Part shown: one piece after another, positions 20,221-30,755 of the stretch
How positions within the stretch are numbered: position 1 is the stretch's first letter
How the letters are laid out: each line of letters opens with the position of its first letter
Source: Methylophaga sp. 41_12_T18
GTDB taxonomy: Bacteria; Pseudomonadota; Gammaproteobacteria; Nitrosococcales; Methylophagaceae
Direction of reading: 5' to 3'
Length of the DNA: 64,000 bases
Assembly: GCA_002163115.1 (NCBI GenBank)
Contig: MAAI01000076.1
Coordinates: 1-64,000 of the forward strand
Made by a program: the position numbers and the translations under genes
The notes under the pieces: model-generated
Told to the model about the DNA's origin: nothing
The model's database searches: none
Seen by the model: the letters and a program-made list of their open reading frames with translations, nothing else

Positions 20221-20317
20221 GAGAAAACAAATAGCTCCAGACTCTCAGTCGCGTATAACCTTGGCTTTGAATACCCACAATACTTTGCCTGATTATTCAA
20301 AAAGTACCTAAAAGGGG
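20221..20317 (+). pseudogene. Fragment of an AraC-family regulator gene (C-terminal HTH)
   Basis: Read in the frame of 20248, this stretch gives LSVAYNLGFEYPQYFA, then a TGA, then LFKKYLK. This is the recognition-helix signature of AraC/XylS regulators (usually GFEYPQYFSRLFKK) with the Arg codon turned into a stop. Nothing of the rest of such a gene is present, and the REP hairpin begins at its end. It is a decayed remnant. Confidence 0.6.
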
Positions 20318-20333
20318 ACGCAACCCTTTTAGG
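20307..20333 (+). repeat. REP-like hairpin upstream of the RAYT gene
   Basis: CCTAAAAGGG and CCCTTTTAGG are perfect 10-base arms around the loop GACGCAA. The core GGGGACGCAACCC recurs inverted after the transposase gene, and with one base changed, twice inside recB. The arrangement is that of a REP element and its tyrosine transposase. Confidence 0.85.
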
Positions 20334-20399: not shown

Positions 20400-21068
20400 A
20401 TGCCAAGGACAAGGCGTCATGTATTTCCAACTATCCCGCATCATATTACCCAGCGTGGTAATCGTCGAGAAGATGTATTTTTCAATGACGACGACAAACA
20501 GCTCTATCTGGAATGGCTGACAGATTACTGTAAGAAATATCAAGTTGAGTTATTGTCATACTGCCTGATGGATAATCATATTCACTTAATTATGACGCCA
20601 CAGACTCATGACGGACTACATAATGTCTTAAAGCCTCTCCATATGCGTTACGCACAATACATCAATAGAAGACATGGATGGTCGGGGCATTTGTGGCAAG
20701 GTCGTTTTTTTTCATCCGCATTGGATGAAGCACACACCCATGCAGCCATTCGTTATGTTGAAAGAAACCCTGTGGAAGCTGGCATGGTAGAAAAATCGGA
20801 AGACTATCCTTGGTCAAGTGCCGCACACCATTGTGGTCAAACAGTAAATGACTTTTTGATGAATCGAGCGAATAAAATCACGGGAATAACTGAAGATAAA
20901 TGGTCTGACTGGCTAGCGATTATTGTGCGTGAAGGGCTAACACAAGTATTGGAGCGAAATATTGAGAAAGGCTTACCTTGTGGATCTGATAACTTCATAG
21001 AACGCTTAGAAAAATTAGCTGATAGATCTTTACAATATCGGCCTCAGGGTAGGCCATCAAAGGGGTAA
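20400..21068 (+). mobile_element. REP-associated tyrosine transposase (RAYT, TnpA_REP)
   Basis: This 222-residue protein is a Y1/HUH single-strand transposase of the REP group. It opens with PRTRRHVFPTIPHHITQRGN, carries the HUH metal motif as NHIHLIM near residue 60 and the nucleophile Tyr in RYVERNPVEAG near 119. The C-terminal basic tail (RPQGRPSKG) follows. Such proteins bind and cut REP hairpins, and are usually single-copy and domesticated. Inverted REP hairpins stand on both sides, and its start lies 66 bases after the left hairpin. The frame is intact. Confidence 0.93.
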
Positions 21069-21089
21069 AAAGGGTTGCGTCCCCTTAAA
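21067..21089 (-). repeat. REP-like hairpin downstream of the RAYT gene, inverted
   Basis: AAGGG-TTGCGTC-CCCTT with A-rich flanks is the reverse complement of the core of the left element. Its arms are shorter than those of the left copy. The left arm begins right at the transposase stop codon. Confidence 0.85.
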
Positions 21090-22095: not shown

Positions 22096-22276
22096 TTTAT
22101 AATCCTTTTAGCGTTGTGTTGCACAATATCCGTATTTTTTCTTTAAAAAAGAAATCGTGAGCAATGGTATTTAGTAAATAGTTTTAAGTCAATTTTGCTA
22201 GCACCCACTTGTATGTAAAAATGCAGCTTTAGTTTTCGCTTTGTCGAAACGGTCATTTTTAGGGATAGCTTCTTTT

Positions 22277-25200
22277 ATGCTCAACGTTGTATACAGTAAC
22301 GATATGGTGCAGTTGGCTGCACAACTTGCTGAGATACAACACAGCGATCCGTTGCCTCCGTTAGAAGCGGAAACGGTGATTGTGCAGAGTAATGAGTTGG
22401 CGCGTTGGTTGTCGTTGTTTTTGGCACAACATCAGGGCGTGGCGAGCAATATTGAGTTTCCTTATCCTTCGGCTTATATCTGGACTTTGTTTCGTCGGGT
22501 GTTGTCGGGTGTGCCTAAGCAATCACCTTTTTCGACCGATGCGATGGCGTGGCGAATCTTTGAGTTGTTGCCGCAGTGCCAACATTTGCCTAAGTTTGAG
22601 CCGATTAATGCCTATTTAGGTTCGCAGGATGATCCTTTAAAACGTTATGCCATTTCCCATCGTATTGCGGATAGTTTTGACCAATATTTGATGTATCGAC
22701 CGGATTGGTTGCAGGCGTGGGAGCAAGGCGAAACACCGCATTGGCAAGCTTTGTTGTGGCAACAGCTGACGGCGGGTGAAGATGCGTCATTGCATCGTGC
22801 GAGTTTGTTGCAACAGTTGCATGATTATTTATTGTCTACCGATCAACGTCCTGCTGGTTTGCCTCGTCGTTTAGCGATTATTGGTGTATCGGCCTTGCCG
22901 CCGGTGTATTTGAAGATCTTTGAATTGATGGCGCGTCATTGCGATATCACCTTGATGTTCTTTTCGCCGAGTGAGGCGTATTGGGGCGATGTGGTTGACA
23001 AAAAAACACAGGCCAAACGCTTGGCTGAGTCGCAAGAAGAAGACTTGTATTTCAATAGTGGTCATCCCTTGTTAGCGAGCTTGGGCAAGCAAGGCCAAGA
23101 GATGTTTGAGCAGTTGCAAGAGTGCGAACACGAACAACAACATCTGTTTAATCCACCACAACAAACCAGTTTATTAGGCTGTTTGCAGCATGATATTTAT
23201 GCCTTGAATGATCCAGAGTTGGTGGAAGATAAGCAGGTTATTTCGGTTGAGGATGATTCGATTCAGGCACATGCCTGCCATAGTGCGATGCGTGAGATTG
23301 AAGTATTGCATGATCAGTTATTGGCCTTGTTTGAACGGCATCCTGATTTATCGCCGACCGATGTGGTGGTGATGACACCGGATATTGAGGTGTATGCACC
23401 TTGGATTGATGCAGTGTTTGCCCGTGTTGAGGGCGAGGCGAGTCAACGTTATATTCCTTATGGCATTGCTGATTGTGGCGTGCGTTATCAAAGTCCGGTG
23501 TTGAATGCGTTTATCACTTTACTAGGCTTGCCGCAGTCACGATTTGATGTGGAAACGGTGTTGAGTTTATTAGAGTGTCAGGCGATACAACATCGTTTTG
23601 CACTTGATGATGAACAGCTGACGGTGATTCGCACTTGGTTGGCAGAGACACAAACACGTTGGGCTTTGTCGGGTGAAGATAAAGCTAAGTTTGATTTGCC
23701 AGAAACGGATAACAATACTTGGCGAGCGGGTTTAGATCGTTTGTTATTAGGTTTTGCCATGCCATTAACCGAGCAAGGCGAAGACTTACGTTTATTTGAA
23801 CAACAGTTGGCTTTTGACGGCATCAGCGGTGAACGTGCAGCAACTATGGCGCAATTATGTGCATTTGTTGATAGTTTGGATAAGTTGCGTAATCACTTAA
23901 ACCGACCTCGCACCGCCGAGCAATGGCAGCAAACCCTAAATGAATGTTTGGATAATGTGTTTTTGCCGATGGGCAATGATAACCATGATGAATCTGAATT
24001 ATTGTTGCTGCGTAAAACTATCGATAAGTTGGTGGAAACTACTGAGCTGGCAGGCTTTGAACAAACCTTGTCATTGGCCTTGGTGACCGATTGGTTGAAT
24101 GGACATTTGGATACCAGCCAAACATTGAGCCGTTTTATGGGCCATGGTGTGACCTTTTGTGGCATGGTGCCGATGCGAAGTATTCCGTTTGATGTTGTGT
24201 GTTTGATAGGGATGAATGACGATAGTTATCCACGTCGTCAGCCAACAGCCGGTTTTGATTTGTTATCACATGATTATCGCTTGGGTGATCGCTCACGTCG
24301 TGATGATGATCGTTATCTGTTTTTAGAAGCCTTGTTGTCATGCCAACGTCATTTGTATTTGAGTTATGTCGGCGCGAGCATTCATGATAATGCCACCATT
24401 CCACCGTCGGTATTGGTCAGTGATCTGCGTGATGTGTTAAAGCAAAGTTATCAGGCAGAACATGACGAAGATATTTGGTCACAACTATTAACGCAACATC
24501 CTTTGCAGGCATTTAGTCCGCGTTATTTTGATGGTGTTGATCCGAAGTTATTTAGTTTTGAACAAGCACAGTGCCCGAATGCTCAGGCAGTGGAGGTGGA
24601 TGATTGGTTTGCCACGCCGCTGCCAGAAGTGGATGCCTCATGGCGACAAGTGAGTTTAAGTCAATTGTTGAACTTCTTCCGTCATCCAGCTCGATATTTA
24701 ATGCGTGAACGCATGGGCATACGATTGGAAATGTCGGATGACCAGTTGGAAACACGTGAGCCGTTTGCCTTAGATGGTTTGCAAGCATGGCAGCTGCGCC
24801 AACAGCTATTAACATCACGCTTAAACGACACGGCCTTGGCCGAGATGTTGCCTTTAGTGCAGGCGACCGGTGTATTGCCACAAGGCATTATGGGTGAACA
24901 TATTTTTGACAACCAAGCCGGTCAGGTGAATGAGTTTGCTGATAAGTTGAGCGAACGTTATCCCGACTCGTTTGAGAACCCAGCATCGTTTGAGTTGAAA
25001 CTGGGCGAGTTTTATTTAAGCGGCCAATTAGAACAACTGCATGAAGGCGGCATATTCCAATATCGAATGGCAAAAACCAAAGGTAATGATCTGTTGGCCT
25101 TGTGGCTGCAACACTTGGTATTGAACTGTGTGCAACCGAAAGGCATCGCCAAATCGAGCCAGTTGTTTACCGAAGATAATGAATATGAATTTGCACCCGT

Positions 25201-25504
25201 GGCGGAGGCAGAAAGCCACTTGTCGACCTTGTTGGACTATTACTGGCAAGGCTTGCACCAACCTTTGGCTTATATCCCCAACAGCAGCTTTGCCTTTGCC
25301 AAAGCAAGTTTAAATAGTGGCAAAGCATCACCTGATAACAAGATGTTTGACGCATGGAATGGCGGTCAATTTTCTAACGGCGATGTAGGCGATGATTATT
25401 ATCAACAAATCTACCAAACCGCACCGTTAGATGAACATTTCAAACAACTGGCCATGGCGATATTTGAACCGATTCAAGAACATCTTGTGGGAGGCAAACT
25501 GTGA
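22277..25504 (+). CDS. recC: Exodeoxyribonuclease V subunit gamma, RecC
   Basis: The start is taken at the ATG at 22277 (MLNVVYSND), since RecC normally opens MLxVYxSN; the frame could begin at a TTG 36 bases earlier. At 1075 residues it is slightly shorter than the E. coli protein. It shows the family landmarks: LSLFLAQHQGVASNIEFPYPSAYIW near the start, VVVMTPDIEVYAPWIDAVF and FCGMVPMRSIPFDVVCLIGMND. RecC splits the strands and recognises Chi. Its stop overlaps the recB start as GTGA. Leucine codons are mostly TTG by eye, as in recB and recD. Confidence 0.95.
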   Translation: MLNVVYSNDMVQLAAQLAEIQHSDPLPPLEAETVIVQSNELARWLSLFLAQHQGVASNIEFPYPSAYIWTLFRRVLSGVPKQSPFSTDAMAWRIFELLPQCQHLPKFEPINAYLGSQDDPLKRYAISHRIADSFDQYLMYRPDWLQAWEQGETPHWQALLWQQLTAGEDASLHRASLLQQLHDYLLSTDQRPAGLPRRLAIIGVSALPPVYLKIFELMARHCDITLMFFSPSEAYWGDVVDKKTQAKRLAESQEEDLYFNSGHPLLASLGKQGQEMFEQLQECEHEQQHLFNPPQQTSLLGCLQHDIYALNDPELVEDKQVISVEDDSIQAHACHSAMREIEVLHDQLLALFERHPDLSPTDVVVMTPDIEVYAPWIDAVFARVEGEASQRYIPYGIADCGVRYQSPVLNAFITLLGLPQSRFDVETVLSLLECQAIQHRFALDDEQLTVIRTWLAETQTRWALSGEDKAKFDLPETDNNTWRAGLDRLLLGFAMPLTEQGEDLRLFEQQLAFDGISGERAATMAQLCAFVDSLDKLRNHLNRPRTAEQWQQTLNECLDNVFLPMGNDNHDESELLLLRKTIDKLVETTELAGFEQTLSLALVTDWLNGHLDTSQTLSRFMGHGVTFCGMVPMRSIPFDVVCLIGMNDDSYPRRQPTAGFDLLSHDYRLGDRSRRDDDRYLFLEALLSCQRHLYLSYVGASIHDNATIPPSVLVSDLRDVLKQSYQAEHDEDIWSQLLTQHPLQAFSPRYFDGVDPKLFSFEQAQCPNAQAVEVDDWFATPLPEVDASWRQVSLSQLLNFFRHPARYLMRERMGIRLEMSDDQLETREPFALDGLQAWQLRQQLLTSRLNDTALAEMLPLVQATGVLPQGIMGEHIFDNQAGQVNEFADKLSERYPDSFENPASFELKLGEFYLSGQLEQLHEGGIFQYRMAKTKGNDLLALWLQHLVLNCVQPKGIAKSSQLFTEDNEYEFAPVAEAESHLSTLLDYYWQGLHQPLAYIPNSSFAFAKASLNSGKASPDNKMFDAWNGGQFSNGDVGDDYYQQIYQTAPLDEHFKQLAMAIFEPIQEHLVGGKL

Positions 25505-28500
25505 GCAAGTTTGATGCAAAAACAGTCGCCTTGGCAGGCACTAACTTAATTGAAGCCAGTGCTGGGACGGGTAAAACCTATACCTTGGCAGAGTTGTATT
25601 TACGTTTGGTGATGGAGCAAGATTTAACAGTCGATAAGATCTTGGTGGTGACTTATACCCGAGCAGCGACGGAAGAGTTGCGTGATCGTTTGCGTCAAAA
25701 GCTGGTGGATGCACGTGATGAGCTTATAAAAGGGGACGCTACCCTTTTATCAAAGGGTAGCGTCCCCTTTTATAAATTGACCTTGGCGATTCAGAGCTTT
25801 GACCAAGCAGCGATTTACACCATTCATGGGGTTTGTCAGCGTGTATTGACCGACTTTGCCTTTGAAAGTGGCTTGCGTTTTGATGTCAGTTTGATGGGTG
25901 ACGAAGTCGATATTTTGCAATCGGTGACCGATGACTTTTGGCGCTGTGAAGTGCATAAAATGAGTGATGACTTTAGTGCTTATTTATTGTCACGCAGTGA
26001 AACGCCTGAAACTTTATTAAAGTCTGTTCGCAGTTTGATTGGTAAGCCTTATCTGCATTATTTACCGTTGCCAGAGATAGATTTAGATCGTTTTCATGCC
26101 ACGGTGAATGAGCAGTTTAAGCAAGTGAAAGCAGTGTGGTTGGAAGAGCAAGATCATGTTGTTGCTACTTTGCAGAATAAGGAACTGCTGAACGGCAATA
26201 AATACCGCAAAACCAGTGTTGAGAAGTGGTTGATTCAACTGGCGGCGATGTTGCAGCTAGATTCTGTTCCGGCCAAGTTGATGGATAACTTTGATCGGTT
26301 CACGCCGACTAAGTTAGAAGATGCTTTGAAAAAAGGCCAACAGCTACCCGAGTTAACGTTTTGGTCTGCGTGTGAGTTGTTGATGGATGCCCAAACGCAG
26401 TTGCAGACAGCGCGCGATGTGCAGTTGCAAAACTTACGTTTGGCTTTGTTGAGCTATATCAATCAGAAAGTGCCTGAGCAGAAACAGCAGCAACAAGTGC
26501 AATCGTATGATGATTTGTTGATTAACCTTGAGCGGGCATTAAATGCCGAACAGGGCGATGTGCTGGTGGAGCAGTTACGTGAGCAATATCAGGCGGCATT
26601 GATAGATGAGTTTCAAGATACGGATCAGGTGCAATACGATAGTTTTAGTCGTATTTATGCCAAAAGTGGTTTGCCGACCTTTTATGTCGGCGATCCGAAA
26701 CAGGCGATTTATAGCTTTCGTGGTGCAGATGTTTTCACTTATTTACATGCGAAATCAGAAGCTGAAATTGAACATACCTTAGGCACCAACTGGCGATCGC
26801 ATCCGCATTTGGTGACGGCGGTGAACAGTTTGTTTGAACGTCGTGATAAGCCGTTTGTTTATGAACAGATCCCATTCATTGCTGTTGGGGCTGCACGTGA
26901 ACAGGAACCGGCCTTGCAAGTGGATGAAGGTGATGATGCAGCGATGCAATTGTTATGGGCGGCCAGTGCGAAGGCGATTACCAAAAAAGACATGGGTTTG
27001 CTGGCGGCGACAGCGACTGCCAATGAGATTGCTCGCTTATTAAACTTGGCACAACAGGGCAAGGCGAGACTGAAGGTGGATGAGGAGTTTCGTGCTTTAT
27101 CCGGTGGTGATATTGCGGTGTTGGTGCGTAATCATCGCCAAGCACAGGAGATTCAACAAAGCTTGCACCTGCGAGGCATTAATAGTGTGCAGCAGGGCAG
27201 AGAGAATGTGTTTGCTACGCCAGAGGCTATGTTATTAGAACGCTTATTGTTGGCGGTGGCTGAGCCGAATAATGAAAGTCGGGTGTGTGCCGTGTTGATT
27301 TCACCGTTGTTTGGTTTATCGGCTGCTGATTTATATGAGTTGCAACAACAAGAACAGGATTGGTTGCAGCAACTCGACTTCTTCCATGACTTGCATCAAA
27401 TGTGGTTGAAACAAGGGTTTATGACCATGTTTCGCTACATTATGGTGGCAAAAACAGTGCAACAACGTTTATTAGCCATGCCAAATGGCGAACGTCGCTT
27501 GACCAACTTAACCCATTTAGCTGAGTTGATTCAGGACTTTTGTAGTCGCCAGAAGAGCACGATTGATGCGGTATTAAATTGGTTAGCATCACATCGTTTA
27601 GCACAAGATGGCGATGATGAAACGGCACAATTACGCTTAGAAAGTGATGAGCAGTTGGTGAAGATCATCACTATTCATAAGAGTAAGGGCTTGGAATATC
27701 CGATCGTGTTTTGTCCGTATTTGTGGAATGCCAATCTACGTTCTGCCAAAGATGATGTGGTGCGTTTTCATGATCCTGAACACAATAATGCTGCCCATGT
27801 CGCCTTTGTTGAACCGGCATTAACCTATGCTCGCGAACAAGTGCAACAAGAAGAGTTAGCCGAAGATTTACGTTTGCTTTATGTGGCGTTAACCCGTGCC
27901 AGAGAACGTTGTATTATTGCTTGGGGGGCAGCAAAGTCGGTTGAAGACTCAGCCTTATTCCAGTTATTGCATCCAACGATAAGCAGTGTGGATAATGCGG
28001 TGATGTCGGCAGATATGCAGCAGTTGGCTGATAACCATGCACCGCTAATGTCTGTGACAGCCTTGACTGAACAAGCTCGAATAAATCTAACTGAGGTTGA
28101 CGATGATGGCGTGCAGTTAGCAGCTAGGAAGTTTGCTGGCAACATTGCTCGCCCTTGGCGAATTGGTAGTTTCAGTGCCTTAACCGCAGGCCATGATGCT
28201 GAGTTGCCTGATTATGATGCTTATAGTGCTGCTGAGTTGAAGTTGCAGGCAGAGAACAGAGTGCAACATTCACAAGATCGCTTTGGTTTCCCACGTGGTG
28301 CACAGGCGGGAACGTGTTTGCATACGATGTTTGAGCTATGGGATTTTAATGTTGATGACCAGGCGGGCTTGCAACATTTAGTCACTCGCACCTTGTCACA
28401 ATATGGTTTTGAACAACGTTGGCAGCCAGTGGTGTGTCAGTGGTTAACTGAGATTGTTAATACGCGATTCAGCGCAGACAGTGACTTTTGTTTAGCCTCT

Positions 28501-29010
28501 TTGCAACCAGCACAGCGTTTGGATGAAATGTCATTTTATTTCCCGGTGGCGCAGTTATCGGTGACAAAGCTAAAGCAGCAGTTATTGCCTCATTTGAATG
28601 ACGGTGATGTGTTGCAGACCTTAATGGCGCAGCTGGATTTTTATGATTTGACTGGCTTTATGAAAGGCTTCATTGATTTGGTTTATGAAGACCAAGGCCG
28701 TTTTTATGTGGTGGATTATAAGTCGAACTTTTTAGGTTATGTCGCTGATGATTATGATGTTTCGGCCTTAGATGAAGCGATGTTGTCACATGCGTATCCG
28801 CTGCAATATTTGATCTATAGCTTGGCCTTGCATCGTTATTTACGTTTGCGAGTGCCGGATTATGATCCGGATCTGCATTTTGGTGGGGTCTATTACTTAT
28901 TCTTGCGTGGCATGCATCCTGAGTGGGGCCAGTCTGGTGTCTATGCTGATCGACCTTCGGCGACATTATTAGATGCACTGGATGCATTGTTACAAGGCAA
29001 TGAATCATGA
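25501..29010 (+). CDS. recB: Exodeoxyribonuclease V subunit beta, RecB helicase-nuclease
   Basis: This 1169-residue protein begins at a GTG overlapping the recC stop. Walker A ASAGTGKT stands at residues 19-26, motif Ia in VVTYTRAATEELRDR, motif II as LIDEFQDTD, motif III at YVGDPKQAIYSFRGAD and motif VI near LLYVALTRARER. The nuclease domain carries GFIDLVYED near 1055 and DYKSN near 1073. Residues ~75-92 (KGDATLLSKGSVPFY) are encoded by an inserted REP palindrome and lie in a region that is a variable linker in other RecB proteins. The frame is unbroken, so the protein is probably active. It joins RecC and RecD for double-strand break repair. Confidence 0.96.
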   Translation: MSKFDAKTVALAGTNLIEASAGTGKTYTLAELYLRLVMEQDLTVDKILVVTYTRAATEELRDRLRQKLVDARDELIKGDATLLSKGSVPFYKLTLAIQSFDQAAIYTIHGVCQRVLTDFAFESGLRFDVSLMGDEVDILQSVTDDFWRCEVHKMSDDFSAYLLSRSETPETLLKSVRSLIGKPYLHYLPLPEIDLDRFHATVNEQFKQVKAVWLEEQDHVVATLQNKELLNGNKYRKTSVEKWLIQLAAMLQLDSVPAKLMDNFDRFTPTKLEDALKKGQQLPELTFWSACELLMDAQTQLQTARDVQLQNLRLALLSYINQKVPEQKQQQQVQSYDDLLINLERALNAEQGDVLVEQLREQYQAALIDEFQDTDQVQYDSFSRIYAKSGLPTFYVGDPKQAIYSFRGADVFTYLHAKSEAEIEHTLGTNWRSHPHLVTAVNSLFERRDKPFVYEQIPFIAVGAAREQEPALQVDEGDDAAMQLLWAASAKAITKKDMGLLAATATANEIARLLNLAQQGKARLKVDEEFRALSGGDIAVLVRNHRQAQEIQQSLHLRGINSVQQGRENVFATPEAMLLERLLLAVAEPNNESRVCAVLISPLFGLSAADLYELQQQEQDWLQQLDFFHDLHQMWLKQGFMTMFRYIMVAKTVQQRLLAMPNGERRLTNLTHLAELIQDFCSRQKSTIDAVLNWLASHRLAQDGDDETAQLRLESDEQLVKIITIHKSKGLEYPIVFCPYLWNANLRSAKDDVVRFHDPEHNNAAHVAFVEPALTYAREQVQQEELAEDLRLLYVALTRARERCIIAWGAAKSVEDSALFQLLHPTISSVDNAVMSADMQQLADNHAPLMSVTALTEQARINLTEVDDDGVQLAARKFAGNIARPWRIGSFSALTAGHDAELPDYDAYSAAELKLQAENRVQHSQDRFGFPRGAQAGTCLHTMFELWDFNVDDQAGLQHLVTRTLSQYGFEQRWQPVVCQWLTEIVNTRFSADSDFCLASLQPAQRLDEMSFYFPVAQLSVTKLKQQLLPHLNDGDVLQTLMAQLDFYDLTGFMKGFIDLVYEDQGRFYVVDYKSNFLGYVADDYDVSALDEAMLSHAYPLQYLIYSLALHRYLRLRVPDYDPDLHFGGVYYLFLRGMHPEWGQSGVYADRPSATLLDALDALLQGNES
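25724..25775. repeat. REP palindrome inserted in frame in recB
   Basis: Two 24-base arms are perfect reverse complements around the 4-base loop TATC. Each arm contains GGGGACGCTACCC, one base away from the hairpins around the RAYT gene (GGGGACGCAACCC). It is a two-unit, inverted BIME-like element. It sits wholly inside recB and is translated through. Confidence 0.95.
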
Positions 29011-30755
29011 GTCAGTTACTGACAGTATTACGCCAAGCAGGATTTAGTGAGTTGGCTTGTCAGTTTGCTAGTTATATTCAACGTATTGATAACAGTGACG
29101 ATGAGTTAGTGCCGTTAACCGCAGGTTTGTTAACTGAGGCGGTGGCACAAGGCCATGTTTGTTTGAACTTGTTGCGTATCGATAGCTGGACTCAAAAGGT
29201 AATGACTTTATTGCCTGAGCAACATGAAGAATGGCTGGCTCGCTTGCAGAAAAGTAATGTGGTCGGCGTTGATGGCGACTACAAACCGTTGATCCTAGAT
29301 AACAATGGTCAGTTGTATTTGTATCGACATTGGCAGGATGAAAAGTCGGTAGCAAATGCTATCTTGCAGCGTAGCCAACACATTGAGTTAAACGATAGTG
29401 ATGCCTTGCAAGCTGACTTTGCTAAATGGCCGAGTTCGGTTGATGGCATTGATTGGCAGAAAGTCGCGGTGTTGATGGCGATGACGCGCCAGTTCTGTGT
29501 TATTTCTGGTGGCCCTGGCACAGGTAAAACGACGATCGTTTTACGGATATTGCAAAGTTTAAAACATCAACATAATGGGGTGCGTATTGCTTTGGCTGCA
29601 CCGACCGGTAAAGCGGCTGCACGCTTGCAGCAATCAGTTGCCCAAGCGGATGACAATGGCATTCAGGCGAAGACATTGCATCGTTTATTAGGCATTACGC
29701 CTGATAATGATCAAGGCCGTTATAACGCCAGTCGACCGTTGCCATTTGATGTGGTGGTGGTGGATGAAGCATCGATGATTGATATTAGTTTGATGGCGAA
29801 ACTACTGAAAGCCTTGTCGGCTAAAGCACGGTTGATTTTGTTAGGTGACAGTCAGCAACTGGCATCGGTAGAGTCGGGTGCGGTATTGGCTAATTTATGT
29901 CAGCAACAAATGATATTTGATCAGACATTTAGCCAACAGTTACAGCTGCTGGCTGGGCAAACTTTAGACGAGCAGTTTGTCAGCGACACCGGCAGTGTTT
30001 TAACCAACAGTGTGGTGCAGCTGCAGCATAGTTACCGCTTTGCTCATGACAGTGTGATTGGTCAATTAGCGAAGTCGGTGCAGACTAAAAATAGTGATGA
30101 CATTATTGCTGACTTTACTCAGTTAAAAGAGACGGTATGGCAGTCTGCTGATGCAGCAAACATCGCCACTCAGATCATGGCTGGCTATCAAGCGTATTTT
30201 GATACGGTGATGTCGTCGGTGAGTCCGGAGCAGTGTTTACAGGCCTTTGATCAGTTTCGGGTGTTGTGTGCCTTAAAACAGGGGCCACAATCCGTTACCT
30301 CAGTGAATAATATGATTGAACGTCATCTTAATAAACAAGGTTGGCGCAGCTTGCAGGATTTTTATCATGGCCGGCCGATCATGGTCACGCGCAATGATTA
30401 TCGTCAGCAGTTATTTAATGGTGATATCGGCATTATTCTCTATGACCCAAAACGGGTATTACGAGCTCATTTTATGATTGATAATGAGGTGCGTGAAATT
30501 CCGATTGCTCGCTTGCCTGCTCATGAAACGGCCTATGCGATGACAGTACATAAGAGTCAGGGTTCGGAGTTTGAGCAAGTCTGTGTATTACTACCAGATG
30601 AAGAGGCGACTATTTTGACCCGTGAGTTACTTTATACCGCACTGACACGGGCTAAAAATCAGTTGATGATTATGGCGGATGAATCGATCATCCGTAGTAC
30701 GGTGGCCAATCAACATACCCGTGAAACAGGTTTGGCTGATATTTTATTAGCTTAG
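29007..30755 (+). CDS. recD: Exodeoxyribonuclease V subunit alpha, RecD helicase
   Basis: This 582-residue protein begins with ATG overlapping the recB stop (ATGA). Walker A GGPGTGKTT is near residue 168; then come AAPTGKAAARL, VVVDEASMIDISLM, LLGDSQQLASVESGAV and the C-terminal YAMTVHKSQGSEFE and LLYTALTRAK blocks. It is the fast 5'-3' helicase of RecBCD. The stop codon overlaps the convergent histidine kinase stop (TTAG). Confidence 0.95.
   Translation: MSQLLTVLRQAGFSELACQFASYIQRIDNSDDELVPLTAGLLTEAVAQGHVCLNLLRIDSWTQKVMTLLPEQHEEWLARLQKSNVVGVDGDYKPLILDNNGQLYLYRHWQDEKSVANAILQRSQHIELNDSDALQADFAKWPSSVDGIDWQKVAVLMAMTRQFCVISGGPGTGKTTIVLRILQSLKHQHNGVRIALAAPTGKAAARLQQSVAQADDNGIQAKTLHRLLGITPDNDQGRYNASRPLPFDVVVVDEASMIDISLMAKLLKALSAKARLILLGDSQQLASVESGAVLANLCQQQMIFDQTFSQQLQLLAGQTLDEQFVSDTGSVLTNSVVQLQHSYRFAHDSVIGQLAKSVQTKNSDDIIADFTQLKETVWQSADAANIATQIMAGYQAYFDTVMSSVSPEQCLQAFDQFRVLCALKQGPQSVTSVNNMIERHLNKQGWRSLQDFYHGRPIMVTRNDYRQQLFNGDIGIILYDPKRVLRAHFMIDNEVREIPIARLPAHETAYAMTVHKSQGSEFEQVCVLLPDEEATILTRELLYTALTRAKNQLMIMADESIIRSTVANQHTRETGLADILLA

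Follow-up and report, generated by a model that had tools for sequence, protein, structure and literature searches.

Palindromic repeats that lie within protein-coding genes are already known. Intragenic REPs, including copies in recBCD genes, were described in 2013, and those in recB of Xanthomonas campestris and X. oryzae occupy approximately the same site as each other (PMC3733652). The same study (Di Nocera 2013) described RAYT-like transposases whose flanking inverted repeats share a GGGGWSAS core and in part also occur as dimers; these are the TIRs and their TIRYTs, and the TIRYTs mostly correspond to subclass 2.1, that is, RAYT group 1 (PMC6006769). Rickettsia palindromic elements of ~150 bp (Ogata 2000/2002, cited in PMC10969869) are found in frame in unrelated protein genes and are translated.

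Here we describe a translated palindrome in recB, located in a 64,000-nt stretch of DNA from Methylophaga sp. 41_12_T18 (“the window”; features in Table 1). With a probability of roughly 85%, we interpret it as a minimal, gene-less copy of a Y1-transposase element that entered recB recently, in frame, as a tolerated and most likely near-neutral insertion. This would make it a clear recent case in which mobile DNA has come to encode part of an important DNA-repair protein whose relatives lack the element.

Table 1. Coordinates of the features discussed, in the window and, for other translated repeat pairs, in the loci named (all in frame).
Feature	Locus	Position	Strand	Remarks
Left terminal repeat of full-length element	Window	20309..20331	+	TAAAAGGGGACGCAACCCTTTTA
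Y1 (HUH) transposase, REP-associated/TIRYT kind	Window	20400..21068	+	222 aa; Pfam Y1_Tnp, E 1.3e-17
Right terminal repeat of full-length element	Window	21066..21088	-	
recC	Window	22241..25504	+	Intact
recB	Window	25501..29010	+	Intact; GTG start overlaps recC stop codon; TIGR00609 973.8 bits (cut-off 696)
Perfect inverted repeat	Window	25724..25775	unstranded	2 x 24-nt arms, TATC loop; read as (I)KGDATLLSKGSVPFY, ~RecB residues 76-91
Left terminal-repeat unit	Window	25727..25749	+	TAAAAGGGGACGCTACCCTTTTA; self-hairpin AAAGGG/CCCTTT, loop GACGCTA; 22/23 identical to 20309-20331
Right terminal-repeat unit, inverse orientation	Window	25752..25772	-	Outer CTTTTA overlaps native recB CTTTTATAAA seen in L005
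recD	Window	29007..30755	+	Intact
Pair in hemW	L095			Pfam-supported
Pair in MfnB/4HFCP synthase	L117			Pfam-supported
Pair in pgeF	L120			Pfam-supported
Pair in cysS, first MAG	L148	4353-4396		GGGGACGC core; loop before DALR_2 domain
Pair in cysS, second MAG	L174	2077-2120		GGGGACGC core; same loop as in L148
Pair in VWA_CoxE protein	L169			Pfam-supported
Pair in transporter N-terminus	L182			Pfam-supported; start codon uncertain
Pair in glyS	L189			Pfam-supported
Pair in pstC (pstC-like permease)	L197	2007-2053		Unit cluster read as repeated KGDATLF peptides
Sister element in recD of genome G136	L208	6041-6107		GGGGTCAGAGTC core; 67-nt inverted pair, 29-nt arms

The arms of the recB palindrome (25724-25747 and 25752-25775) are 100% complementary and stand 4 nt apart, exactly as a first-pass annotation of the window had reported. 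By chance, such a repeat with a loop of at most 12 nt is expected ~3e-9 times in 64 kb. The palindrome consists of a pair of terminal repeats placed head to head, and each unit, (T)AAAGGGGACGCTACCCTTT(A), is a small hairpin by itself. The annotation had also matched the arms, with one base different, to the hairpins beside the transposase gene 4.7 kb upstream. The single mismatch stands; however, what the palindrome and the transposase flanks share is a unit of ~23 nt and not the whole 24-nt arm. Judging from base counts around 42 distinct copies, in which conservation stops at about TW before AAAGGGG, the mobile part of the palindrome spans ~25727-25772 (46 nt), which leaves 3 bp at either extremity outside the family consensus. 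The 222-aa transposase is the likely source of transposition activity for this repeat family. The recB copy carries CTACCC, which is usual in the family, whereas the resident transposase element has CAACCC at both ends; thus, the resident element was not the direct donor. A sequence search returned no solved structure for the transposase.

When the 52-mer is read in its three forward frames, only the one used in recB lacks stop codons. The palindrome falls in the length-variable linker that separates helicase motif Ia from the TIHG block. In an AlphaFold2 model of RecB residues 1-330 (mean pLDDT 82), the block with the palindrome-encoded residues scores lower (67), and most of these residues fall after helix 54-78 and before helix 88-98. 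Since the E. coli protein has a longer segment here and the model positions the residues between helices, a tolerant interhelical loop is the simplest reading of the segment.

We compared this linker across relatives, with ~30 linkers from the family, delimited as the stretch from TRAATEELR to AIQSF, and ~70 further linkers from the class. The family linkers are 30 residues long in 25 loci and 31-45 in the others, and 34 in the window recB. None of the other family linkers contains a long palindrome (arms of at most 8 nt vs 24 nt in the window), and in the ~70 class linkers, which vary in length, the best arm is 10 nt with a 29-nt loop. The pattern used for the class missed 18 loci. A looser pattern made 13 of these readable, again without an insert of this sort, and when these loci were all scanned for palindromes without restriction, the linker contained none. 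Because the palindrome is absent from ~100 other recB linkers of the family and class, we conclude that it is not ancestral. The linker does vary in length, and the residues DEL and FYKLTL alongside the palindrome are native, as would also be seen if ancestral coding sequence had become palindromic by accident; given the empty linkers, the match to the transposase flanks and the minute chance expectation, we regard this origin as practically negligible. Thus, the first-pass description of an in-frame, transposase-associated insert in a variable linker is supported, and the palindrome is absent from related recB genes.

The same description envisaged plain insertion accompanied by a target duplication, and here the comparison with relatives differs. 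In the closest relative, from the same genus (L005), the linker reads GATGAG-33 nt-TTTTATAAA, whereas the window has GATGAG-45 nt-TTTTATAAA (in protein, DELLAEPELNQKDFYKLTL vs DELIKGDATLLSKGSVPFYKLTL), a net gain of 12 nt rather than 52. The right-hand TTTTATAAA is native recB sequence, as is the outermost part of the palindrome on that side, and DEL and FYKLTL were assigned as native by this comparison. Since the linker has grown by only four codons, about 10 native codons appear to have been lost and replaced by 14. The exact junctions and the identity of the lost codons are deduced from diverged genes, the nearest recB being 71% identical in protein and no same-species empty site being available. 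No target duplication was seen, and none is expected for Y1 transposases (PMC2817692). As an alternative, a single unit could have arrived first, and a template switch (hairpin copying) could then have created the second arm at the expense of native linker codons. The gain of only 12 nt is compatible with this, and the arms run 3 bp past the family consensus (TTATAA) beside a native right flank, as though one side were a copy of the other. However, this extension amounts to a 1 in 64 coincidence, and the repeat family often forms inverted pairs whose spacers vary (86 stretches), so that both units could have been transferred together. We consider the template switch unlikely.

In the insertion reading that we prefer, two terminal hairpin repeats joined head to head would form a TIR dimer with a REPIN-like organisation. 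Acting in trans, a Y1 transposase like the one upstream would have moved a family copy of this form into the variable stretch that joins motif Ia to the TIHG block. There, in the sole frame that stays open, the linker would have gained four codons net, ~10 native ones having been displaced either by the insertion itself or later. The resulting peptide, KGDATLLSKGSVPF, would form an interhelical loop, and RecB is still full length.

As RNA, the palindrome is computed to fold at -39.9 kcal/mol (z = -12.6), with a stem of 23-24 bp located ~220 nt into the recB ORF. A structure of this stability might delay ribosomes or be cleaved by RNase III, and selection for this early in the recB mRNA could keep RecB below RecC. 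The great stability of the hairpin and its still perfect arms fit a regulator, but a recent insertion would also have perfect arms. Elongating ribosomes usually unwind such stems. Moreover, the recB element is confined to one species, and members of the family in unrelated genes (hemW, cysS, glyS, pstC) do not suggest a recB-specific role. A selected regulator is thus improbable.

The repeat family is sparse in the window genome and wider in its distribution. The genome-wide count proposed in the first-pass annotation gave 5 close matches, and 12 at 3 or fewer mismatches, in 2.43 Mb. On contigs C73, C13, C16, C27 and C85 of this genome (L079-L083) we observed single diverged units, 0 of which lie inside ORFs of at least 80 aa. 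The unit is present in 15 of 57 family genomes, and in three of these (G029, G012, G023) two units 716 bp apart surround a homologous transposase gene. Paired units were recovered from GTDB genomes (the 86 stretches mentioned above). For the intergenic copies of G023 we found no clean empty sites, synteny being broken at the element or the sequences too diverged. The pair was also seen in MAGs labelled Omnitrophota, Deltaproteobacteria and SAR324 (L137, L144, L155, L163), either through horizontal spread or because contigs were mis-binned.

The first-pass annotation treated a location within a gene as exceptional, a view countered both by the published intragenic REPs (PMC3733652) and by at least seven further cases found here (Table 1). 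Host genes were retained only where supported by Pfam; many repeat-covering ORFs of GC-rich MAGs were dropped as probably spurious. Within the family, short pairs lie in verified genes in 3 of 7 cases vs 0 of ~28 for single units (Fisher p 0.005, indicative given hand-made counts and a small sample). The two cysS pairs could reflect either shared descent or repeated targeting of the same loop. The MfnB protein is 12 residues longer than its relatives. Two MfnB homologues (L322 in G001, L323 in G010) each have one in-frame stop in the matched stretch, which may represent decay or an alignment end effect. These copies also bear on whether the recB palindrome could be an assembly artefact. The genome is a draft of 94 contigs, but recB is normal on both sides of the palindrome and in one frame, unlike a fold-back chimera, and many independently assembled genomes have genes with an in-frame member of the same family; we give an artefact very little credence.

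One transposase-linked hairpin family is translated within several housekeeping genes. None of its Pfam-supported hosts hemW, MfnB, pgeF, cysS, glyS, pstC and the VWA protein acts in repair; this tells against a preference of such insertions for repair genes, as has been proposed in the literature, yet the sister element lies in recD of G136. The least expected point is a repeated sign that native loop codons were replaced rather than added to: 10 out and 14 in for recB, 4 and 16 for MfnB, and 4 and 28 for hemW, while the recD loop with the sister element is shorter than in the sister species (net loss ~10). In hemW, the site without the element in G018 (92% identical) is 24 residues shorter and four native residues are displaced; in the other cases the sign comes from more diverged relatives. 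Tentatively, and with rather more doubt than belief, these elements might swap native surface loops through integration coupled to target loss, unlike clean IS200/IS605 insertion. If true, this transposon family would be a recurrent source of protein loop replacement.

Regarding known repeat families, the term REP used in the first-pass annotation does not apply strictly. The recB palindrome fits better as a TIR of TIRYT/RAYT group 1 transposases than as a GTAG/CGTC REP, because its ends are untagged and each genome contains few copies. The ends are TWAAAGGGG, with no unpaired GTAG or CGTC tag, and these letters occur only across stem and loop. As with TIRs (PMC3733652), the window repeats are inverted around a Y1 transposase gene and short inverted dimers also occur away from it. 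The GGGGACGC core agrees with GGGGWSAS at 7 of 8 positions, a partial match. Unlike the TIRs of TIRYTs, the window unit is self-complementary, and a literature search for palindromes with the GGGGACGC core returned nothing relevant. Membership of the transposase in TIRYT/RAYT group 1, and hence its subclass, is probable rather than proven, since it scores 75.5 bits against NCBIfam REP_Tyr_transpos, slightly short of the cut-off of 80, and no HTH domain was found with Pfam at E 1e-3, a search that a weak or unmodelled HTH could escape. In this it differs from subclass 2.1 TIRYTs, all of which bear an HTH (PMC6006769), a criterion that bears on the transposase subclass and not on the repeat.

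The family also differs from GTAG/CGTC REPs, which are high in copy number and mostly intergenic, whereas here copies are few and the recB copy is intragenic. With REPINs (PMC3116915) it shares two short inverted hairpin units, a short spacer and a tie to a Y1 transposase, but not the GTAG/CGTC tag, high copy number or intergenic setting of REPINs and REPs with RAYTs. Like the Rickettsia palindromic elements, the recB palindrome lies in frame within a conserved protein gene, although they are ~150 bp long vs 46-52 nt here and probably of different sequence. The Xanthomonas recB REPs are likewise palindromic repeats in frame in recB, and the palindrome described here places a different repeat family in that same gene.
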